This document shows positions 1,306 through 10,217 of a stretch of DNA of 10,217 nucleotides, in pieces. The stretch's first letter is position 1. Each line of letters opens with the position of its first letter. The translations under genes and the position numbers were made by a program. The DNA is taken from NCBI GenBank assembly GCA_938001995.1, contig CALLAV010000090.1, positions 1 through 10,217 of the forward strand. Reading direction: 5' to 3'. The notes below the pieces were generated by a model, which was not told the DNA's origin, did not search any database, and was given only the letters and a program-made list of their open reading frames with translations. The DNA comes from an uncultured Amylibacter sp. (lineage in GTDB: Bacteria > Pseudomonadota > Alphaproteobacteria > Rhodobacterales > Rhodobacteraceae).

Positions 1306-2589
1306 TTAGTAGTTAGACGTCAACTGAACGCAGGTCTTGGTTTCGGTGTTGTACATACCGCATCCCAGCTCTTTCCAGTCGGACATCAGAACCGCAGATT
1401 CTGGTAAGAAGTCTGTCCACGCATCGCCTGGCACTTCTTTGGTCTGGCTGACGATGTCGAATTGGCCGTCCGCTCTGATTTCGCCAATCACGACGGGTTT
1501 GGTCAGGTGATGGTTTGGCAACATTACCGCCGTGCCACCTGTGAGGTTTGGGAATTCCTGCCCGTACATTGCCGTACGTACCGCATCCACATCCGTTGTG
1601 CCTGCTTGTTTGACCGCGTTCACCCACATGTTAAAGCCAATGTAATGAGCCTCCATCGGGTCGTTGGTGACACGTTGTGCACCTGCGTGGGCTTTCCATG
1701 CGGCAACCCATTTGTCATTGGCTTCGCTTTTGGCGGATTGGAAGTAATTCCACGCGGCCAAATGCCCGACGAGGTTGGATGTATCAAGGCCGGATAGCTC
1801 TTCTTCACCCACCGAGAACGCCACAACTGGGATGTCATCAGCGGAAATACCCGCAGCGGCCAGTTCTTTGTAAAAGCCGATGTTCGCATCGCCGTTAATA
1901 GTAGAGATTACGCCGACTTGGCTGCCGTCTGCGCCCAATTCAACAACATCTGCAACGATTGTAGACCAGTCGGAATGACCAAACGGTGTGTAGTTAACGA
2001 AGATATTTTCCTCGGCCACGCCTTTGTCGATCAGATACTGTTTCAGGATCTTGTTCGTCGTCCGCGGATAGACGTAATCCGTCCCCAGCAACGCAAATTT
2101 TTCGACGCCCAATTCGTCAATGAAATAGTCTGTGGCAGGAATGGCCTGCTGGTTTGGTGAGGCCCCAGTGTAAAACACATTGCGCGAGCTTTCTTCACCC
2201 TCGTACTGGACAGGGTAGAACATCAAACCGTTCAGTTCTTCCAAAACAGGCAGCGCGGATTTGCGTGACACAGACGTCCATGCACCAAAGATCACATCCA
2301 CTTCGGACACAGTCAGCAATTCGCGCGCCTTTTCGGCGAACAAGGGCCAGTCAGATGCGGGATCGACGACAACGGCTTCTATCTGGCAATCAAGCAAGCC
2401 ACCTGCTTCGTTTTGCTGTTTTATCAACAGCTCCATTGTGTCTTTCAACGTAGTTTCGGAAATGGACATAGTGCCCGACAGCGAGTGCAAGACTCCAACC
2501 TTGATTGGGTCAGCGCAGTCTGCGGTGGCAATGGATCCTGCGAACATCAAGCCCGCCGCAGAAAGAGTGAGTTTGGTAGAAAAAGTCAT
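1306..2589 (-). CDS. urtA: Urea ABC transporter substrate-binding protein UrtA
   Basis: Periplasmic binding protein that captures urea and delivers it to UrtBC. The 427-residue length is normal for the family. A signal peptide covers about residues 1-23 (MTFSTKLTLSAAGLMFAGSI, then ATA before DC). The mature protein opens with the type-1 periplasmic-binding fold (IKVGVLHSLSGTMSISET). Typical UrtA stretches follow: DPASDWPLFAEKARELL, FGAWTSVSRKSALPVLE, MFYPVQYEGEESS near 124-136, and GTAVMLPNHHLTKPV in the C-terminal part. The MFYPVQYEG segment and the TMSISE segment distinguish UrtA from leucine-type binding proteins and from the amide sensor AmiC. The ATG at 2589 is supported by AAAAGG nine nt upstream and by the signal peptide starting there. 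This is the first gene of the urt operon and diverges from the ATP-grasp cluster. Nitrogen control (NtrC) is usual for urt operons, but no complete NtrC site is visible. Confidence 0.96.
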   Translation of the reverse strand: MTFSTKLTLSAAGLMFAGSIATADCADPIKVGVLHSLSGTMSISETTLKDTMELLIKQQNEAGGLLDCQIEAVVVDPASDWPLFAEKARELLTVSEVDVIFGAWTSVSRKSALPVLEELNGLMFYPVQYEGEESSRNVFYTGASPNQQAIPATDYFIDELGVEKFALLGTDYVYPRTTNKILKQYLIDKGVAEENIFVNYTPFGHSDWSTIVADVVELGADGSQVGVISTINGDANIGFYKELAAAGISADDIPVVAFSVGEEELSGLDTSNLVGHLAAWNYFQSAKSEANDKWVAAWKAHAGAQRVTNDPMEAHYIGFNMWVNAVKQAGTTDVDAVRTAMYGQEFPNLTGGTAVMLPNHHLTKPVVIGEIRADGQFDIVSQTKEVPGDAWTDFLPESAVLMSDWKELGCGMYNTETKTCVQLTSNY

Positions 2590-2598
2590 TGTGACATA

Positions 2599-2604
2599 CC
2601 TTTT
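2599..2604 (-). promoter_or_regulatory. Ribosome binding site of urtA
   Basis: AAAAGG on the minus strand, nine nt before the ATG at 2589. It supports this start over internal ones. Confidence 0.6.
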
Positions 2605-2645
2605 AGGCGTGCGGCACGGCCGTCGCCTTCTTGACGAACAGACGT

Positions 2646-2656
2646 CTTAGGCTAAG
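2646..2656. promoter_or_regulatory. 11-bp dyad in the urtA leader
   Basis: Perfect inverted repeat CTTAG-G-CTAAG, 57-67 bp upstream of the urtA ATG. The position suits an operator near the transcription start or a small leader hairpin. No binding protein can be named from the sequence. Confidence 0.3.
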
Positions 2657-2792
2657 CTGAACCACACAGCGTTTGCTGTAGCTGCGGACAGGGTGGATCG
2701 TGCAAGATTGTCCTGTTCGCGGCGCTTCTGATCGAAGCCTGTGAAGCGTCAACTTTGCACCTTGAACGGACAAGTCTGCCGCAAAATGAATC

Positions 2793-2807
2793 TTCTTGTT
2801 TCAAGAA
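2793..2807. promoter_or_regulatory. 15-bp dyad TTCTTG-N3-CAAGAA upstream of urtA
   Basis: Perfect 6-bp arms around TTT, about 200 bp upstream of the urtA ATG. The three-base centre makes a DNA operator more likely than a stable RNA hairpin. The cognate regulator is unknown. Confidence 0.3.
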
Positions 2808-2919
2808 AAATGCTTACTATTTGAGCGTTTTTTCAGACGTGATCCACAAATTGAGCAACAAGCGCAGCGCAATATTTGAATGCGGTTCCGTGGTGCAACT
2901 GCGAAGAAATTTAGCCTAG

Positions 2920-2936
2920 GTAATTGATAGTATTAC
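2920..2936. promoter_or_regulatory. 17-bp dyad GTAAT-N7-ATTAC
   Basis: Perfect 5-bp arms spaced by seven bases, in an AT-rich stretch. This is the classical layout for a dimeric helix-turn-helix regulator. It lies about 330 bp from urtA and 470 bp from the ATP-grasp gene, so its target is unclear. A chance match is possible in AT-rich DNA. Confidence 0.25.
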
Positions 2937-3030
2937 ATAAAAACGAGAAACAAAGCCCGACTAGAGCGCTTCACGAAAAACCGCAGTCCTCAGATGGTGC
3001 GTGACAGGTCAGTAAACCCTAGTGCAGAGC

Positions 3031-3072
3031 GCGTTTCGCGAAAGGCTGATGCTCCAGCTTTTCGCAAAACGT
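3031..3072 (+). terminator. Long imperfect hairpin with T-run (terminator-like)
   Basis: The arms 3031-3048 and 3055-3072 pair around a 6-nt loop (ATGCTC). The inner 11 positions (GCGAAAGGCTG / CAGCTTTTCGC) are uninterrupted, with one G-U pair. After a single C-A mismatch the outer GCGTTT / AAACGT arms also pair, ending in a G-U pair. Both wobbles are G-U in plus-strand RNA, and TTTTAA overlaps the 3' end of the stem only on that strand, so the plus orientation is favoured. No plus-strand gene lies upstream within the window, so it would terminate an unannotated transcript or block read-through into the ATP-grasp operon. A large operator or an old mobile-element end are alternatives. Confidence 0.45.
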
Positions 3073-3406
3073 TTTAATGGCCTCGCCTCGTTGTTTGAGC
3101 ATTCGGTTGCGAGGGCTTGGCGGGTTTTGATGCCAAACTGGACGCCCCAAGCACTATCACTGTGATTTGGCCATGCAACATTCGACGTAATTTCTAAGTC
3201 AACATAAGCAAAATAGGACCCTAAATCAGCCAATCACCTTCGAAAGAAACGAGTCTACACGCTAGTTTCACCGGTGGTAAAATTGTTGCCTACAAAATGT
3301 TCATTTGCCCTGTCGTGGCACATTGTTTTGGCCATATCCTTGCAAAACCCAGACGCGGTTCTTTGGTACGCGTTGCACTAAGCCCGTAAACCTGTAGTCT
3401 TCACAG

Positions 3407-4831
3407 ATGACCACAGATCAGACGCACTTTAGCGAGATGCAAACACCCGACGGTGTGCGCGCCCCCTATTCCCAATACGACGGATGGTTTTCAGACCAAG
3501 ACAAAGCTCGCCTGTCCAAGAAGGCACGCGAGGCCGAGGCTTTCTTTCGGCGAACAGGGATCACATTCAATGTTTATGGGGACAATGACGGCGAAGAACG
3601 CTTGATCCCATTCGATCTTGTCCCGCGCATTCTGTCCAACAAAGAATGGGCCAAACTGTCCAAGGGGATTGATCAACGGGTGTGTGCGATCAACGCATTC
3701 CTTCATGATATTTACAACCGCCAAGAAATTTTGCGCGCCGGCATCGTCCCCACTGAATTGATCGCCCAAAACGAAGCGTTTTTGCCAGAAATGATGGATT
3801 TCAGTCCACCCGGTGACGTTTACACCCACATCGTAGGCACGGATGTTGTGCGTACGGGTGAAGACGATTTCTTTGTGCTAGAAGACAACGCGCGCACGCC
3901 TTCGGGTGTCAGCTACATGCTCGAAAATCGCGAGACGATGTTGCAGATGTTCCCGGAATTGTTCTCGAAGATCAAAGTGCAATCCGTTGGCAATTATCCC
4001 AAACACTTACGCCGCTCGCTTGAGGCCTGTGCGCCCAAATCTGCGAGCGAACGGCCCTGCGTTGCGATTTTGACGCCGGGCATTCACAATTCAGCCTATT
4101 TCGAGCACAGTTTTCTGGCCGATCAAATGGGCGTGGAGTTAGTGGAAGGCCATGACCTGCGGGTTGTGGACGGCCATATCGCCATGCGCACCACTCGTGG
4201 GTACAAAGTGATCGACGTTCTGTATCGGCGTGTGGATGACGATTTTTTGGATCCGTTGACCTTTAACCCCAACTCAATGTTAGGCGTGCCTGGCATCATG
4301 GATGTGTACCGCGCTGGTAATATCACAATTACCAACGCACCCGGAACAGGGGTTGCAGATGATAAGGCGATTTACAGTTACATGCCCGACATCGTCGAGT
4401 TCTACACTGGCGAGCGGGCGATCCTGAAAAACGTAGAAACCCATCGCTGTTCTGAACCACAGACGCTGAAATATGTGCTCGATAACCTTGCTGATCTGGT
4501 CGTGAAAGAAGTTCACGGCTCTGGCGGATACGGAATGCTTGTCGGCCCTGCCGCCAGCAAAAGAGAGTTGTCAGATTTTGCAGCCAAGTTGAAATCCAAC
4601 CCTGCCAACTATATCGCGCAGCCGACGCTTTCGCTTTCGACCGTGCCAATTTTCACGAAGAAAGGCCTCGCGCCGCGCCATGTGGATTTGCGTCCCTTCG
4701 CGCTTGTGTCCCCGAGCGGTGTGGATATTACACCCGGCGGCTTGACCCGTGTTGCGCTGAAAGAAGGCAGCTTGGTCGTGAACAGCAGCCAAGGTGGCGG
4801 CACCAAAGACACTTGGGTCTTGGAGGACTGA
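3407..4831 (+). CDS. Circularly permuted ATP-grasp protein (type 2)
   Basis: Predicted ATP-dependent carboxylate-amine (peptide-forming) ligase of the circularly permuted ATP-grasp family, formerly DUF404/DUF407. The 474-residue length is normal. Family motifs appear in order: LEDNARTPSGVSYMLENR (158-175), LYRRVDDDFLDP (272-283), GVPGIMDVYRAGNITITNAP (293-312), the Gly-rich loop VVKEVHGSGGYGMLVGP (365-381), YIAQPTLSLS (402-411), RHVDLRPFAL (424-433) and the C-terminal SSQGGGTKDTWVLED. These acidic, basic and glycine motifs are where ATP and Mg would bind. There is no signal peptide, so the protein is cytoplasmic. The ATG at 3407 has no clear Shine-Dalgarno. An ATG at 3437 (residue 11) is possible, but the upstream residues look family-like. 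It is the first gene of the four-gene cluster, and its TGA shares a base with the ATG of the alpha-E gene. The true substrate is unknown. Confidence 0.95.
   Translation: MTTDQTHFSEMQTPDGVRAPYSQYDGWFSDQDKARLSKKAREAEAFFRRTGITFNVYGDNDGEERLIPFDLVPRILSNKEWAKLSKGIDQRVCAINAFLHDIYNRQEILRAGIVPTELIAQNEAFLPEMMDFSPPGDVYTHIVGTDVVRTGEDDFFVLEDNARTPSGVSYMLENRETMLQMFPELFSKIKVQSVGNYPKHLRRSLEACAPKSASERPCVAILTPGIHNSAYFEHSFLADQMGVELVEGHDLRVVDGHIAMRTTRGYKVIDVLYRRVDDDFLDPLTFNPNSMLGVPGIMDVYRAGNITITNAPGTGVADDKAIYSYMPDIVEFYTGERAILKNVETHRCSEPQTLKYVLDNLADLVVKEVHGSGGYGMLVGPAASKRELSDFAAKLKSNPANYIAQPTLSLSTVPIFTKKGLAPRHVDLRPFALVSPSGVDITPGGLTRVALKEGSLVVNSSQGGGTKDTWVLED
4822..4826 (+). promoter_or_regulatory. Ribosome binding site that fixes the alpha-E start
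   Basis: GGAGG lies inside the last codons of the ATP-grasp gene, four nt before the ATG at 4831. It argues for the ATG at 4831 and against the in-frame TTG at 4813. Confidence 0.7.
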
Positions 4832-5772
4832 TGTTAGGTAAAACCGCAGGTGGTCTCTATTGGATGTTTCGCTATCTGGAGCGGGCCGAAAACACGGCCC
4901 GTTTGATCGAAGCAGGCTTTCGCATCGCATTGACCCGATCCACAGACGCCGAGGCAGAGTGGAAATCCGTTGTTACGACATCTGCCACACAGGCAGGATA
5001 TGACGCAAAATACGACAGTTATGAAAGCGCCCATATAATTGATTATTTGTTGCGTGATGCAGAAAACGCAAATTCTGTCTTATCGGTGATCAAAATGGCC
5101 CGCGACAATGCGCGGTTGGTTCGCACGGCGTTGACAACCGAAGTGTGGTCAGCCGTGAATGAAACGTGGATGCTGTTCACCGAGGTTCTAAAGTCGCCCG
5201 TACCCGAGGTGGACCTGCCCCAGGTTCTTTCGACCATCCGCCAACAATCCGCGCTGGTGCGAGGAGCTTTGCTTGGCACAATGTTGCGCAATGACACGTT
5301 CCACTTTTGCCGCATCGGGACGCATATTGAACGAGCGGACAACACGGCGCGTATTATCGATGTCAAATACTTCTCGCTTTTGCCGACCACGTCGCGGGTT
5401 GGGGGGCGGTTGGACAATGTGCAATGGGAAACGCTGTTGCGATCCGTTTCGGCCCATCGCTCGTTTCGGTGGGCGGTTGAAGAGGATTTTACCGCCGCAG
5501 GCGTCGCCAGTTTCTTGATCCTTGATCGCCGCATGCCGCGTTCGCTGTCGTTTTGCGCCCAAGAGATTATTGGAAGTCTAAACAATCTCGCCGAGGATTA
5601 CGGTGCGAAAATGCCCTGTCATGATTTGGCGGATGCCATGGGTGCGCGTTTGTTGAACCGTGATATTTCATCCATTTTTGACGAAGGACTGCACGAGTTT
5701 TTGAACGCGCTTGTTTTGGATGCGGCGTCGCTTGGTCAGCAGATCGAGCAAGACTATCGGTTTGCAAACTGA
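4831..5772 (+). CDS. Alpha-E domain protein (DUF403)
   Basis: A 313-residue, apparently all-helical cytoplasmic protein of the alpha-E family, which habitually travels with circularly permuted ATP-grasp and transglutaminase genes. Its biochemical role is not established; a scaffold or catalytic partner of the ligase has been proposed. The N-terminus (LGKTAGGLYWMFRYLERAE) is the family signature. The Glu-rich helix ERAENTARLIE (18-28) recurs as ERADNTARIID (167-177), suggesting an internal duplication. Another conserved helix is ARDNARLVRTALTTEVW (90-106). The start was set at ATG 4831, because this gives the canonical family N-terminus, a good GGAGG and a TGATG overlap with the preceding stop. 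An upstream in-frame TTG would add six residues. The end again overlaps the next start by one base, so the three proteins are probably made in coupled amounts. Confidence 0.95.
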   Translation: MLGKTAGGLYWMFRYLERAENTARLIEAGFRIALTRSTDAEAEWKSVVTTSATQAGYDAKYDSYESAHIIDYLLRDAENANSVLSVIKMARDNARLVRTALTTEVWSAVNETWMLFTEVLKSPVPEVDLPQVLSTIRQQSALVRGALLGTMLRNDTFHFCRIGTHIERADNTARIIDVKYFSLLPTTSRVGGRLDNVQWETLLRSVSAHRSFRWAVEEDFTAAGVASFLILDRRMPRSLSFCAQEIIGSLNNLAEDYGAKMPCHDLADAMGARLLNRDISSIFDEGLHEFLNALVLDAASLGQQIEQDYRFAN

Positions 5773-6569
5773 TGCTGCTTCGGATCACACACAAAACGCA
5801 GTACAGCTATTCACAACCTGTGGATTATGCGCTGCAAAAGGTCCGCCTGACGCCGCGCAGTTCTGCCATTCAGGACATTTCTGATTGGGAGGTGACGGTA
5901 GACGGCGGCAAAGTCGAAGCCAGCTATTCAGATCATTACGGAAACCATGTCGATCTTGTTAGCATCGAACAAGGTGCGCAGAACCTGATTGTAACCGCAA
6001 CAGGCACAGCCAACACTCAAGACACGGCGGGCGTGTTTGGTAAAGTGTATGGCCGTGCGCCGCTGTGGCATTTCCAACAATCCACCCCTTTGACCACCCC
6101 AGCATTCAGCATGGCATCGCTTGCGGCGATATTGGAAGAGCACGACACGCAGCTAGCGGGGCTCCATGCTTTGTCAGCTGCGATATTAAGCGTAACACCC
6201 TATCAAGTTGGCGCAACGAATTCGGAAACCACTGCTGCGGCGGCCTTGGCCCTTGGGGCGGGCGTGTGTCAGGACCATGCGCATATCTTTATTACTGCGG
6301 CACGCATCGCAGGTCTTCCTGCACGCTATGTTAGTGGATACTTGATGATGGACGACCGCGTCGATCAAGACGCCAGCCACGCTTGGGCGGAAGCCCATGT
6401 TGACGGCGTTGGCTGGGTCGGTTTTGATGTATCGAACGGGATCTCGCCTGATGAACGCTATGTGCGCATTGCCATAGGCCGCGACGCACAGGACGCCGCG
6501 CCAATTTCTGGGCTTAGAATGGGTCAATCGGACGAAGCGATGATTGTATCTTTGCAGGTGCAGCAGTAA
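5772..6569 (+). CDS. Transglutaminase-like cysteine protease family protein
   Basis: A 265-residue papain-fold transglutaminase-core protein with the bacterial N-terminal beta domain (about 1-75; HKTQYSYSQPVDYALQKVRL). The catalytic triad is readable: Cys166 in AGVCQDHAH, His203 in ASHAWAE and Asp219 in GFDVSNG. Such proteins act as peptidases or amide-transfer enzymes. There is no signal peptide, so it should act in the cytoplasm beside the ATP-grasp and alpha-E proteins. The ATG at 5772 shares its A with the upstream TGA and has no Shine-Dalgarno, so translation is probably coupled to the alpha-E gene. Thirty-four bp separate it from Anbu. In this cluster it could cleave the bond that the ATP-grasp enzyme makes, or transfer the product to a protein; both are inferences. 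Confidence 0.95.
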   Translation: MLLRITHKTQYSYSQPVDYALQKVRLTPRSSAIQDISDWEVTVDGGKVEASYSDHYGNHVDLVSIEQGAQNLIVTATGTANTQDTAGVFGKVYGRAPLWHFQQSTPLTTPAFSMASLAAILEEHDTQLAGLHALSAAILSVTPYQVGATNSETTAAAALALGAGVCQDHAHIFITAARIAGLPARYVSGYLMMDDRVDQDASHAWAEAHVDGVGWVGFDVSNGISPDERYVRIAIGRDAQDAAPISGLRMGQSDEAMIVSLQVQQ

Positions 6570-6588
6570 GCAGGCCTGAAGATTAGGC

Positions 6589-6594
6589 AAAGGA
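6589..6594 (+). promoter_or_regulatory. Ribosome binding site of the Anbu gene
   Basis: AAAGGA lies nine nt before the ATG at 6604. The start matters because the second residue, Thr, becomes the catalytic N-terminus once Met is removed. Confidence 0.65.
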
Positions 6595-6603
6595 CTGCTT
6601 GAA

Positions 6604-7335
6604 ATGACATATTGTGTGGCCATGCGGATCAATCGCGGTTTGGTGTTTATGTCTGACACGCGCACCAGCGCGGGTGTCGACAACTTTGCTGTCAGCCGTA
6701 AAATGTTCACATGGACGGAACCGGGCGAGCGTAAGATCACCATCATGACTGCGGGCAATCTTGCGACAACGCAATCCATGATCAGCTTGCTCGAAGAACG
6801 TTCTAAATCTGTCGAAGACCGCGACCCGAGCATCCTGCGCGAAAAGACCATGTTTCAGGTGGCACGACTGGTGGGCTCGACTTTGAAAGAAGTGATCACG
6901 TCCAGCAGCCCGAATGGCCAAACGTCCGAGGATAAATTCCGTGCCTCTGTCCTTGTAGGTGGGCAAATCAAGGGGGGGCATCCGACCATCTTTCTTGTCT
7001 ATCCCGAAGGCAACTTCATCGAAATCACCGAGGACACGCCCTATCTGCAAATCGGCGAAACCAAATACGGCAAGCCGATCCTTGTGCGGGCTTATGACCC
7101 TAATCTGACGTTTGAAGAGGCGTTAAAGTTGTTGTTGGTGTCGTTTGATTCCACTGTGAAAGCCAACCTTGGTGTGGGTCTGCCGTTTGATGTCGAAGTC
7201 TATGAAACGGATTCATATTCGTCAGAACGCCAAAAGCGAATAGAGGCGACGGATGAAACATACCAAACGATATCAGAGGGTTGGGGTGACGCATTGCGCG
7301 AAGCCTTCACAAAACTGCCCAGCTATTCTATTTAA
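6604..7335 (+). CDS. Anbu, proteasome-like N-terminal threonine peptidase
   Basis: A 243-residue member of the Anbu (ancestral beta-subunit) family, bacterial relatives of HslV and 20S proteasome beta subunits. They assemble into ring or spiral particles. The start MTYCVAMRINRGLVFMSDTR is diagnostic: Met removal exposes Thr as nucleophile. Asp18 (SDTR) and Lys33 (SRKM) sit at the positions of the proteasome Asp17 and Lys33 residues. Further family blocks are MTAGNLATTQS (48-58), ASVLVGGQ (114-121), YLQIGETKYGKPIL (147-160) and TVKANLGVGLPFDV (184-197). There is no propeptide, as in other Anbu and HslV proteins. It is longer than HslV because of a C-terminal extension after about 200. It has its own ribosome binding site and no hslU or other unfoldase gene beside it, which matches the family and suggests peptide or tag substrates rather than folded proteins. 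Confidence 0.94.
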   Translation: MTYCVAMRINRGLVFMSDTRTSAGVDNFAVSRKMFTWTEPGERKITIMTAGNLATTQSMISLLEERSKSVEDRDPSILREKTMFQVARLVGSTLKEVITSSSPNGQTSEDKFRASVLVGGQIKGGHPTIFLVYPEGNFIEITEDTPYLQIGETKYGKPILVRAYDPNLTFEEALKLLLVSFDSTVKANLGVGLPFDVEVYETDSYSSERQKRIEATDETYQTISEGWGDALREAFTKLPSYSI

Positions 7336-7365
7336 TCGGCCTCCCTTTTTGCGAGCGTACCAACC

Positions 7366-8940
7366 ATGTCCGATCCATCCAATTCTGTAGACCTTTTCGT
7401 GATAGGCGGCGGCATCAATGGCTGCGGTATCGCGCGGGACGCGGTTGGTCGTGGATATTCCTTAAAACTGGCAGAAATGAACGACTTGGCATCGGCCACG
7501 TCTTCGGCATCGACAAAACTGTTTCACGGCGGCCTGCGGTATCTGGAATACGGAGAAATCCGTTTGGTGCGCGAAGCTTTGATCGAACGCGAAACCTTGC
7601 TGCGGGCCATGCCCCATATCAGTTGGCCGATGCGCTTTGTGCTGCCGTACCATGCAGATATGCGGTTTGATTCCGATACGCCAGCATCCCGCTTGTTGTC
7701 GCTGGTCATGCCCTGGATGAAGGGTCGCCGCCCTGCGTGGATGATCCGCCTTGGGCTGTTTTTGTATGACAATCTGGGTGGGCGAAAAATCTTACCCGCC
7801 ACCAAAACGCTGACCCTAAAGAACACGCCAGAAGGCGCACCGCTTGAGGATCGTTTTGAAAAGGCGTTTGAATATTCCGATTGCTGGGTTGAAGATGCCC
7901 GCCTTGTGGTTTTGAACGCACGCGATGCCGCCGCGCGGGGTGCGCAAATCATGGTGCGCACGAAGGTGATCTCTGCCAGCTACAACGACGGCTTGTGGCA
8001 CATCACAACCGAAGGGCCAGATGGCACGATAGTACATACAGCAAGGATGATCGTGAACGCAGGTGGTCCTTGGGTCGAAGATCTGATTTACAAAACCATC
8101 CGACTGAATTCCACAGAAGGCATCCGCCTTGTTCGCGGCAGTCACATCGTCACCAAACGGCTGTATGATCATGACAAATGCTATTTCTTCCAAGGCGAAG
8201 ACGGGCGCATCATTTTCACCATTCCTTATGAAGATGATTTCACCCTTATCGGCACGACTGATGCGGATCACAGTGGTGCGGATACACGGCCCATATGTAC
8301 GTCCGAAGAAACGGAATACCTCCTCGAATTCGCAAATGGGTATCTGAAACAAGACCTCACAACGGACGATGTGGTCTGGACCTATGCGGGGGTACGGCCG
8401 TTGTATGAAGACGGCGCCAGCTCGGCCAGTGCTGCAACCCGCGAGTATGTTTTGCGCGTGAACACGTCGATGGGTGGGCCAGTGCTGAACGTGTTTGGCG
8501 GTAAGATTACGACCTATCGCAAACTGGCCGAAGCGGCAGTCGCTAAGATCAACGAAACGTTAGGTCATAGTGGCACAGATTGGACGGCGGGCGTTGCAAT
8601 GCCCGGCGGTAATTTCCCTGTCAGCGGCGTGGCTGATTTGCGGCAATCCCTTGCCAAACAGTTGCCGTTTCTATCAGCCCAAACCATCGCACGTTTGATC
8701 CGCCAGTATGGGACCGAGGCAGCGGCTATCTTCATGGATGCGGTCTCTGCCGCCGACCTTGGATCGGATTTTGGCAGCGAGATTTACCAACGAGAGCTTG
8801 ACTGGGCCATTGCAAATGAATGGGTACGAAGCGGTGAGGATTTTCTCTGGCGGCGTTCAAAACTTGGTTTGCGCACAACGGCTGAGCAACAAGCACAAAT
8901 TGACACATATTGCCGCGAAGTCTCTGGTAATGTTACTTAA
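7366..8940 (+). CDS. glpD: Aerobic glycerol-3-phosphate dehydrogenase GlpD
   Basis: FAD enzyme at the inner face of the cytoplasmic membrane. It oxidises sn-glycerol 3-phosphate to dihydroxyacetone phosphate and passes electrons to quinone. At 524 residues it has the usual GlpD length. The dinucleotide-binding motif is VIGGGINGCGIARDA (12-26), followed by STKLFHGGLRYLEYGE (49-64), a strong GlpD signature. The central region has MIVNAGGPWVED and IIFTIPYEDDFTLIGTTD. The C-terminal DAO_C domain ends with EWVRSGEDFLWRRSKLGL (485-502). The ATG at 7366 has only a weak GCGAG upstream. It is 30 bp behind Anbu without a visible terminator, so it may be read from the same transcript, although its metabolism is unrelated. 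No glpR, glpF or glpK is in the window. The last 8 bp overlap the convergent TetR gene. Confidence 0.96.
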   Translation: MSDPSNSVDLFVIGGGINGCGIARDAVGRGYSLKLAEMNDLASATSSASTKLFHGGLRYLEYGEIRLVREALIERETLLRAMPHISWPMRFVLPYHADMRFDSDTPASRLLSLVMPWMKGRRPAWMIRLGLFLYDNLGGRKILPATKTLTLKNTPEGAPLEDRFEKAFEYSDCWVEDARLVVLNARDAAARGAQIMVRTKVISASYNDGLWHITTEGPDGTIVHTARMIVNAGGPWVEDLIYKTIRLNSTEGIRLVRGSHIVTKRLYDHDKCYFFQGEDGRIIFTIPYEDDFTLIGTTDADHSGADTRPICTSEETEYLLEFANGYLKQDLTTDDVVWTYAGVRPLYEDGASSASAATREYVLRVNTSMGGPVLNVFGGKITTYRKLAEAAVAKINETLGHSGTDWTAGVAMPGGNFPVSGVADLRQSLAKQLPFLSAQTIARLIRQYGTEAAAIFMDAVSAADLGSDFGSEIYQRELDWAIANEWVRSGEDFLWRRSKLGLRTTAEQQAQIDTYCREVSGNVT

Positions 8941-9499
8941 TTCGGTTCTGCAAAACCGCGGTGGCTGCGTTGAACAGTGCCACGTCCCGCCCCGCTCGCG
9001 CCGAAAGCTGCGCACCTTCTAATAAGGCCAAGGTTGCCGCAGCCTCCCTCTTTGGGTCAGTTACATCTGAAATGGTTTCGTCCGCTTGCCCCTTGGCAAA
9101 AACCGTTTCCAACCAGACCAGCATCATACGCCGGAAAGCAGCCATGTGTGCAATTGCTTCATCGGACAACCCATCGCGACTGACAGAAAAGGCGACACAC
9201 AGGCACAGGCTTTGCCCACCGTTGAGCGCATCTGCGTAACGTTCAATCAAGGCCGCCAATCGCGCGCCGCCTGCGGTTTTTTCAGTGTCTATTTTTGCAC
9301 AAACTTGGCGAAAAATTTCTTGATACCGCGCGATCAAAGCGACGGATAAATCCGCCTTGCTTGGGAAATGGTAATGAATGCTCGCCTTGCGAATACCCAC
9401 CTCCGCTGCCAAATCGGCATAGCTGAAGCCGTCAAATCCATTGCGCCGCGCAGCAGATTCCGCTGAATTCAGAAGCGCGGTTTTAGTATCCACCGTCAT
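8933..9499 (-). CDS. TetR-family transcriptional regulator
   Basis: A 188-residue regulator with an N-terminal TetR helix-turn-helix (about 24-47; FSYADLAAEVGIRKASIHYH) followed by FPSKADL, the family hallmark. The C-terminal ligand domain contains a CLC pair (GGQSLCLCVAFSVSRDG), similar to regulators annotated in the AcuR/YcdC-like branch. The start at 9499 was chosen because it overlaps the amine oxidase stop as ATGA and gives a normal N-terminus. The frame stays open upstream, but those 41 codons run inside the amine oxidase gene and give a non-family sequence. It is translationally coupled to the amine oxidase gene and probably controls it, or a linked pathway, by autoregulation; the ligand is unknown. 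Its stop lies within the last codons of glpD on the other strand. Confidence 0.92.
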   Translation of the reverse strand: MTVDTKTALLNSAESAARRNGFDGFSYADLAAEVGIRKASIHYHFPSKADLSVALIARYQEIFRQVCAKIDTEKTAGGARLAALIERYADALNGGQSLCLCVAFSVSRDGLSDEAIAHMAAFRRMMLVWLETVFAKGQADETISDVTDPKREAAATLALLEGAQLSARAGRDVALFNAATAVLQNRIK

Positions 9500-10217
9500 A
9501 CCACTTCGCTTTCTAGGTTTAGGGCAGCAAAAGCCATTTCTGCCGCTTCCAATGCGCCTTCCAAATACCCGCCAAAGGCTGTTGCAACCTCGGTTCCACC
9601 GAACAACAGTTGCCCCTCCCAAAGCCCTCTTAACGCTGGGGGCAAGCCATAGGATGGGTGCGCGTACATGGGCGCGCGATCAGCGATTGTTGCTGTGTGC
9701 CGATCAAAGGCCCAATCCTTCAGAAATAAGTCCTTGGGATCAGACGCTTTGGCTCCAAACAACCGCACAAATTGCGCAATGCAATGGGACCGCAGAGCAT
9801 CCGCATCCAACCGACAATCAGGCGGTACGCCAATAAAACCAAACAGCGCCCCAAGGCTATCGTCCATCGGGGATGCATCGTGGATTTCCACCATCGGTCC
9901 GTGTCGGCTCATGGCGTCACCTGACAGACCCGCGTCACGCCAAAAAGGTCGATCGTATACGGCGATTGCTTTGGCTTGCCCCGCCATCCACGTCGGCACA
10001 AGGGCCATCGCTTCCATGATTTCTGGCGACAAAGCTGGCTGATATGCCAAATCCGCAGCAATACGCGGCGGCACGGCCAAAACGACACGACGGGCCGAAA
10101 TCTTTTCACCTTTTGCGGTCGTTGCAACGATTGCGGCCTTGTCGTTTTGAAGGGCTGAGACCTCTTGCCCCAAACGCACGGCCCCTTGCGGCAATCCCTG
10201 CGCCAGTCCGTCAATCA
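9496..10217 (-). CDS. Flavin amine oxidase (partial, N-terminus beyond right edge)
   Basis: The C-terminal 239 codons of an FAD-dependent amine oxidase (MAO/polyamine oxidase-like fold), which would oxidatively deaminate an amine to an aldehyde or imine. The frame is open to the window edge. The in-window start-like TTG at 10194 is internal, since IDGLAQGLPQGAVRLGQEV reads through it and matches the family segment before the second FAD-domain strand. Other family features are RRVVLAVPPRIAADL, SWITCHED-type substrate-domain helices with YDRPFWRDAGLSGD, and the C-terminal FAD-contacting block GQLLFGGTEVATAFGGYLEG, where the usual FAGTE reads FGGTE. The Rossmann N-terminus is outside the window. 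The gene ends in an ATGA overlap with the TetR gene, which supports a shared operon. The substrate cannot be told from this part. Confidence 0.9.
   Translation of the reverse strand, partial: IDGLAQGLPQGAVRLGQEVSALQNDKAAIVATTAKGEKISARRVVLAVPPRIAADLAYQPALSPEIMEAMALVPTWMAGQAKAIAVYDRPFWRDAGLSGDAMSRHGPMVEIHDASPMDDSLGALFGFIGVPPDCRLDADALRSHCIAQFVRLFGAKASDPKDLFLKDWAFDRHTATIADRAPMYAHPSYGLPPALRGLWEGQLLFGGTEVATAFGGYLEGALEAAEMAFAALNLESEVV

Follow-up and report, generated by a model that had tools for sequence, protein, structure and literature searches.

Anbu, a proteasome-beta-like N-terminal nucleophile (Ntn) hydrolase, is encoded in an operon with genes for an ATP-grasp protein, an alpha-E protein and a transglutaminase; this Anbu operon has been described in Pseudomonas, Yersinia and others (PMC5666114, PMC6376114; here and below, statements taken from the literature refer to the available parts of the papers cited). 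The order of its genes, the absence of an unfoldase, and hypotheses of tagging and of peptide synthesis have all been published in the same two papers, which cite Iyer 2009 and Valas and Bourne 2008 as earlier sources. The Yersinia ATP-grasp protein releases phosphate from ATP (PMC6376114), and Anbu of P. aeruginosa binds proteasome inhibitors, at Thr1 (PMC5666114). Although structures of Anbu have been solved, no substrate of it is known, and interest in its function is heightened by its position close to the root of the proteasome family. We describe here a copy of the operon at positions 3407-7335 of a 10,217-nucleotide stretch of DNA from an uncultured Amylibacter sp. (Rhodobacteraceae), called the window below, and compare it with its relatives. 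To the published picture our survey adds that Anbu was found only in genomes with Alpha-E, that the transglutaminase is apparently exchangeable, that in one relative the ligase and Alpha-E look to have been swapped as a pair, that Alpha-E is, judged by its sequence, an internal duplication, and that the window's operon has a urea transporter gene, urtA, as a neighbour. These comparative points narrow the search for a substrate without naming it.

The window is one whole contig (CALLAV010000090.1, C90) of a 2.7-Mb assembly that is 72% complete; judged by Anbu, its closest named relatives are Sulfitobacter and Pseudophaeobacter. All four operon genes are open and lie on the + strand. The first (3407..4831) encodes a circularly permuted ATP-grasp ligase of 474 residues (Pfam CP_ATPgrasp_2, E-value 7e-162), the second (4831..5772) an Alpha-E protein of 313 residues (DUF403, E 2e-88), the third (5772..6569) a transglutaminase-like enzyme of 265 residues (Transglut_core, E 9e-21; Bact_transglu_N, E 2e-20) and the fourth (6604..7335) Anbu itself, 243 residues long with a Met-Thr start (Proteasome, E 6e-10). 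At the ATP-grasp/Alpha-E and Alpha-E/transglutaminase joints the stop and start share one base of the sequence TGATG, and a gap of 34 bases separates the transglutaminase gene from that of Anbu. The initial annotation, made from the letters alone, had claimed four consecutive genes on one strand, with one-base overlaps among the first three and conserved motifs in all of them; the coordinates, order and joints are confirmed, and the motifs are borne out by the Pfam matches and by the catalytic residues of Anbu and the transglutaminase discussed below. Since the operon, its order, the hypotheses about it and the missing unfoldase are in print, the window is an intact, ordinary copy of the published Anbu operon, with a circularly permuted ATP-grasp, Alpha-E, transglutaminase and Anbu on one strand in the published order.

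Relatives were searched for in a family sample of 120 genomes and a class sample of 133, the window's own genome being in both; in the class sample the searches for Anbu and Alpha-E were cut at E <= 1e-20, and low-identity Anbu matches (32-40%) were counted as Anbu irrespective of subtype. Anbu was found in 83 genomes of the family sample and Alpha-E in 88, and every one of the 83 has Alpha-E; the same is true of all 34 Anbu genomes of the class sample. At class level, 21 of 36 Anbu matches have Alpha-E no more than 2 kb upstream on the same strand, and one (G160) has it nearby on the opposite strand. The 12 class genomes in which Anbu is solely unlinked (two of these matches, G194 with an internal stop and G231, are partial) all carry Alpha-E, as against 46 of 133 overall (P 1e-6). 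A crude guard against genome size is given by the 29 genomes that bear UrtA, of which 22 have Alpha-E, including all 20 with Anbu (P 2e-5). The reverse does occur: Alpha-E is without an Anbu match in five of 88 family genomes (among them G030, with Alpha-E only at a contig end) and in 12 of 46 class genomes. That the dependence runs this way suggests a role for Anbu in the service of the ligase system. It had been proposed in the initial annotation that the substrate of Anbu may be the ligase product itself, and this is supported in part, because Anbu was not found without Alpha-E even when unlinked and the reverse occurs; published tests, considered below, are mixed. Two further kinds of locus were seen. 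Divergent Anbu-like genes of 31-37% identity (L140-L145, in G170, G159, G147, G198, G154 and G134) have no partner-gene match in the fetched stretch, Alpha-E being elsewhere in those genomes, and ATP-grasp, Alpha-E and transglutaminase genes stand together at L063 (G048) and L064 (G083) in genomes with no Anbu match.

Within the family the four genes are mostly linked. In 79 of the 83 Anbu genomes an Alpha-E gene precedes Anbu on the same strand by no more than 3 kb, and in 73 both ATP-grasp and the small transglutaminase adjoin Anbu; the co-occurrence stated in the initial annotation is thus recovered, and in neither the family nor the class survey was Anbu adjacent merely by chance, an outcome it had named as fatal to its view. 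ATP-grasp without a small transglutaminase stands beside Anbu in four of the 83. Three have a transglutaminase and no query-like ATP-grasp, owing to a contig edge (G119), to an operon split over both ends of one contig (G081) or to distant ligase genes (G014), and three have neither, their matches being fragments, on contigs that are short or broken, in G021 and G118, and Anbu lying on a different contig from the other three genes in G066. Among 42 named loci fetched by Anbu, 39 have all four genes in the window's order; of the exceptions, L023 and L024 begin inside the operon and L043 is an Anbu fragment match only. In loci passing the spacing filter, some of which may be near-duplicates, the median distance from ATP-grasp to Alpha-E is +4 bases (n=114, with 10 bases or fewer in 100) and that from Alpha-E to transglutaminase +3.5 bases (n=98); the window's overlap of exactly one base is not conserved across the operons. 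Flanking neighbours, compared by clustering and not by annotation, hold only one further gene family that keeps its position across roseobacter loci, that of a second transglutaminase-like gene, which lies directly upstream of ATP-grasp in eight named loci (L009, L012-L018; at about 6322-6663). The Roseibium and Stappia loci have common flanks but are close kin. In G081, the operon (L109, L110) is divided between the two ends of contig C39 (70,392 bases), an arrangement suggesting that it resides on a circular replicon of some 70 kb.

In the transglutaminase of the window Cys166, His203 and Asp219, which we take to be the catalytic triad, are present. They are identical in all 22 rows of an alignment that includes four of the large, DUF2126-fused kind, and in a wider alignment His and Asp are found in 57 of 57 rows and Cys in 56. 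Four family genomes (G008, G015, G039 and G078) have ATP-grasp, Alpha-E and Anbu with only 82-344 bases between Alpha-E and Anbu, and in each a transglutaminase-DUF2126 fusion gene lies divergent to ATP-grasp (the fusion domains are those of the complete G015 and G039 proteins, scanned with Pfam; a contig end interrupts the G008 fusion). Pfam describes DUF2126 as a putative amidoligase. It is found within 8 kb of Anbu in 4/4 genomes without the small transglutaminase and in 1/76 with it (G025); Fisher's test, computed on 4/4 vs 1/75, gives 3e-6, the four family cases being one or two events on trees and therefore few independent cases. The class sample contains five more operons without the small transglutaminase (G210, G201, G214, G176, G247), of which that of G210 has the same divergent fusion and that of G201 is cut by a contig end. 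All nine genomes whose operon is without the small enzyme encode another Bact_transglu_N protein, in five of them the DUF2126 fusion adjoining ATP-grasp. The transglutaminase step is apparently exchangeable, another gene being able to supply the activity. A loss of all transglutaminase from the four family genomes was considered and rejected; a search at E <= 1e-15 had missed the adjacent transglutaminase-DUF2126 gene. PF09899 (DUF2126) was not found in the window's genome.

The ATP-grasp protein, a near full-length match to PDB 3n6x (E 3e-190), is the most conserved of the four, its identity being 58-90% across the 39 named loci, out of 42, in which it is present. In G014 (L065, 3796-7961) ATP-grasp and Alpha-E are 29% and 24% identical to those of the window, still in the same Pfam families, and the transglutaminase (42%) and Anbu (52%) are closer than the ligase pair; it looks as if this relative swapped ligase and Alpha-E together, as one unit. 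The two halves of Alpha-E align with each other over 134 columns (E 5e-10), with ER motifs (Glu17-Arg18 and Glu167-Arg168) in register; in control comparisons E was 0.004 for the best of 20 column shuffles and 0.54 for a reversed half. By this comparison Alpha-E is an internal duplication. Its model, a confident one, is all-helical (mean predicted local distance difference test score, pLDDT, 90.6), and no convincing solved structural relative of the model was found. Many genomes have a second Alpha-E match in an open frame of about 800 residues, the length of an ATP-grasp/Alpha-E fusion, and going by that length alone such frames are probably natural fusions. Ligase and Alpha-E look like the core of the system, the transglutaminase like an exchangeable step and Anbu like a dependent accessory, because of the dependence of Anbu on Alpha-E, the exchange of the transglutaminase, the joint swap in G014 and the duplication in Alpha-E. 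Some irregular copies were noted: a second ATP-grasp match in G013 (C1:1490778-1491767; 81% identity, residues 62-390) has an internal TAG and is apparently a decayed duplicate, and the ATP-grasp match of L069 (G049) near 6795 and the Alpha-E match of L003 near 8972 are each split in two, the pieces lying in different frames, through sequencing errors or decay.

The window's Anbu has five distinct PDB sequences as matches, of which three bear the name Anbu and two only that of 'Peptidase', the latter presumably also Anbu. It has Thr1, Asp17 and Lys32, with a Met-Thr start and no propeptide; Asp17 and Lys32 are found in 56 of 56 alignment rows and Thr1 in 55, with one row truncated by the end of its contig. 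An exposed Thr1, Asp17 and Lys32(33) are described as features of Anbu (PMC6376114, PMC5666114). The S1 pocket of P. aeruginosa Anbu (Anbu-1) is formed by T20, F30, T48, L52 and S55 (PMC5666114); the window has T20, S30, T48, L52 and T55 and is thus identical at three of the five positions. At residue 30, 27 of 56 rows, each at least 68% identical to the window Anbu, have S, T or A and the others F, Y or N; the P1 pocket of the group to which the window Anbu belongs may accordingly be wider or more polar. The basic pocket reported for C. hutchinsonii Anbu-2 (PMC5666114) was not seen in the window Anbu. The statement of the initial annotation that there is no unfoldase gene holds for the window: no AAA+ unfoldase family was found among the nine window proteins scanned with Pfam (the rest of the genome was not searched), and in its available parts PMC5666114 reports none with Anbu.

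Published data connect the operon with nitrogen limitation. In nitrogen-limited wild-type P. putida KT2440, PP_2686, PP_2687 and PP_2688 are up 12.6-, 11.0- and 14.7-fold and urtABCD 9.9- to 20-fold, both groups being listed as putatively NtrB/NtrC-controlled (PMC7801951). That paper cites two other studies in which PP_2685 (Anbu) was induced, and nitrogen-limited induction of Anbu is also cited by Fuchs et al. (PMC5666114). Four B. cenocepacia genes (DUF404/407, DUF403 and two transglutaminases) stand at log2 -6.0 to -9.4 in an ntrC mutant and are among the strongest NtrC-dependent ones (PMC5491218), and in marine metagenomes urea-metabolism domains are associated with DUF403/404/407 and Bact_transglu_N (PMC3597751). 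In the window, urtA (1306..2589, - strand; TIGR03407, 530.7 bits against a cut-off of 492.75), for the binding protein of a urea ABC transporter, lies outside the operon and divergent to it, and the upstream flank also contains the start of urtB, likewise on the - strand; the 817 bases between the urtA and ATP-grasp starts (2590..3406), as read from the sequence, presumably hold the promoters of both. The same arrangement, with urtA about 4 kb from Anbu, is found in the window's genome (G000), G067 (L058) and G088 (L059). By chance about 0.16 cases of urtA within 5 kb would be expected among the other 62 family genomes with both genes, and the probability of two or more is about 0.01 by a rough Poisson estimate that ignores kinship. 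Anbu and UrtA co-occur with p 0.0003 in the 120 genomes and 0.013 within size bins. The urtA neighbour, of which the initial annotation made no use, fits the published nitrogen-limitation data in part.

As the best explanation of these findings we propose, with a probability of about 0.42, that the operon encodes an amide-ligation and processing module in which Anbu cuts the ligase product, and that it is probably used when nitrogen is short. ATP-grasp, with Alpha-E as its partner, would activate a carboxylate at the expense of ATP and join it to an amine, giving an amide-linked peptide or conjugate; the ligase activity is that expected of the family, and ATP hydrolysis has been shown by others for the Yersinia relative. 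The transglutaminase-fold cysteine enzyme would transfer or hydrolyse the amide, a step for which another gene can apparently stand in. Anbu, as a Thr1 hydrolase with no unfoldase, would cut the ligase product rather than folded proteins, as is suggested by its dependence on Alpha-E genomes. The module would be expressed under nitrogen limitation alongside urea uptake; the urtA neighbour suggests so here, and published work reports such expression of three of the four genes in Pseudomonas putida and of a related cluster in Burkholderia cenocepacia. A bolder version, which we think unlikely, would make Anbu a dedicated hydrolase, and no general protease, for an ATP-grasp/Alpha-E amide product that is made and trimmed under nitrogen shortage; the small transglutaminase and the transglutaminase-DUF2126 fusion would be interchangeable, so that two amidoligase systems feed one common product, and the duplicated Alpha-E would be the second half of the ligase, more than a helper.

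A number of observations weigh against the proposed module. Peptidase activity of Anbu has not been found, neither standard peptides nor labelled casein being cut (PMC5666114, PMC6376114), and the Yersinia operon proteins gave no stable complex (PMC6376114); co-expression of Anbu with the other operon proteins resulted in no other form of Anbu (PMC6376114, PMC5666114). One group judged a role in peptide synthesis less likely (PMC5666114), and the operon has no known substrate or product. Among the genomes, 14 of the 36 class-level Anbu matches have no Alpha-E nearby, and the co-occurrence figures carry no phylogeny correction. The operons of G214, G176 and G247, without the small transglutaminase, have no substitute nearby; the one row lacking the catalytic Cys in the wider transglutaminase alignment, with Ala in its place, is that of G083, which is without an Anbu match; and G021 (79% complete, its operon broken at contig ends) alone of 23 genomes queried gave no Bact_transglu_N match.

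The connection with nitrogen meets similar objections. In P. putida PP_2685 rose only 1.12-fold in the wild type, and 4.8-fold in a relA/spoT mutant, and its neighbours were still induced in an rpoN mutant, 14-20-fold (PMC7801951). Only 3 of 63 family genomes with both genes have urtA adjoining the operon, two of them close kin on the tree, and none of 19 other class genomes having both does; when only the 76 complete genomes of 3.0-4.8 Mb are counted, the co-occurrence of Anbu and UrtA reaches no more than p 0.10. The case for urtA as a conserved neighbour of the operon is thereby weakened. A conserved sigma54 promoter was rejected: the match at 3329-3344 (9 of 12 scored positions) is not conserved, at least 9 positions being reached in 9.5% of 1051 control upstream stretches and, among 39 ATP-grasp upstream stretches (window included), in five, with none higher. 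NtrC-like palindromes in six upstream stretches were not convincingly better than shuffles, the best of them, in the window, being equalled by 35 of 200, and no Sigma54_DBD match was found in the window's genome at its 72% completeness. Over 2590-7480 there is no excess of sigma-70 promoters (3 found, 3.4 expected) or of terminators (5 found, 6.0 expected), and no Rfam match reached the gathering score.

Some of these points could be taken to mean that the operon is a cassette of enzymes needed simultaneously, under nitrogen starvation, for different substrates, with Anbu as a general Ntn amidase that scavenges nitrogen. The published joint induction of three of the four genes with urea uptake (PMC7801951) agrees with such an arrangement, as do the class-level matches in which Anbu is unlinked to Alpha-E and the placing of Anbu on a separate contig in G066. 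Co-regulation alone does not, however, account for Alpha-E in every sampled Anbu genome, unlinked ones included, and it leaves the near-zero ATP-grasp/Alpha-E spacing and the joint swap in G014 unexplained; we consider a mere cassette unlikely. Of much the same standing is the view, already in print (PMC6376114), that ligase, Alpha-E and transglutaminase put a peptide or isopeptide tag on proteins which Anbu then degrades, recycling nitrogen in the manner of a minimal proteasome system. Anbu has kept a proteasome-like active site, Fuchs et al. favour protein degradation (PMC5666114) and expression of the operon under nitrogen limitation is published in part (PMC7801951, PMC5666114). Degradation of tagged proteins is made doubtful by the lack of an unfoldase both in the scanned window proteins and in the published account, by the inactivity of Anbu on the peptides and casein already mentioned, and by G048 and G083, which keep ATP-grasp, Alpha-E and transglutaminase without any Anbu match and where tagging would therefore have no destroyer.

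Less likely still, in our judgement, is a small-molecule pathway in which an amide metabolite, to be secreted or stored, is built by ATP-grasp, Alpha-E and transglutaminase, and in which Anbu, dropped by many lineages, acts late as a hydrolase for proof-reading or recycling. The genomes with Alpha-E and no Anbu, never the reverse, and the replacement of the small transglutaminase by DUF2126 fusions would be in keeping with it; against it, nothing is known of a product, and no gene family other than the second transglutaminase-like gene recurs at a fixed place beside the roseobacter operons. We retain the amide-ligation and processing module, and with it regard the interpretation offered in the initial annotation as partly supported. 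If Anbu genomes always carry Alpha-E, the substrate of Anbu should be sought among ligase products and not among proteins at large. The natural variants, in which the operon lacks the small transglutaminase or Anbu or has an exchanged ligase/Alpha-E pair, offer comparisons ready to hand, and the link to nitrogen limitation and urea uptake suggests under what growth condition the operon should be studied.

Downstream of the operon, and also on the + strand, glpD (7366-8940) begins 30 bases past Anbu, so that the two could be co-transcribed. Beyond glpD lie a TetR regulator (8933-9622) and an amine oxidase fragment (9496-10215), both on the - strand; as mechanically called, these two open reading frames overlap by 127 bases, and the TetR start is probably further inside. 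Neither glpD nor urtA stands beside the operon in any of the 42 named loci, as far as the fetched flanks reach.

Other described systems resemble the operon of the window to differing degrees. RimK/RimB and RloABC of Pseudomonas are alike in outline, setting an ATP-grasp ligase against a protease, and Rlo has a transglutaminase-fold protein (PMC12239564). They differ in that an aspartic protease takes the place of Anbu, in that the transglutaminase is membrane-bound and inactive, and in that Alpha-E is not mentioned in the available parts of that paper; the window has CP_ATPgrasp_2 with a Proteasome-family hydrolase, and no retropepsin-like aspartic protease was found beside its ATP-grasp gene. 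The likeness is one of how the systems work, and we do not count the window's operon among them. A related cluster consists of transglutaminase-DUF2126 together with, often elsewhere in the genome, Alpha-E in a frame of about 800 residues, and B. cenocepacia I35_5080-83 (DUF404/407, DUF403, two transglutaminases) appears to be a cluster of this general sort. It has the same ligase, Alpha-E and transglutaminase domains as the window operon, and the B. cenocepacia one is NtrC-dependent; it differs in that no Anbu is named among the B. cenocepacia genes listed in the available parts of PMC5491218, and in its DUF2126, not found in the window's genome as noted above. The published Anbu operon agrees with that of the window in its four families, their order and strand, the catalytic residues of Anbu and the lack of an unfoldase gene, and the window is set apart from it by the divergent urtA and by Ser at S1 residue 30, where P. 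aeruginosa Anbu has Phe.

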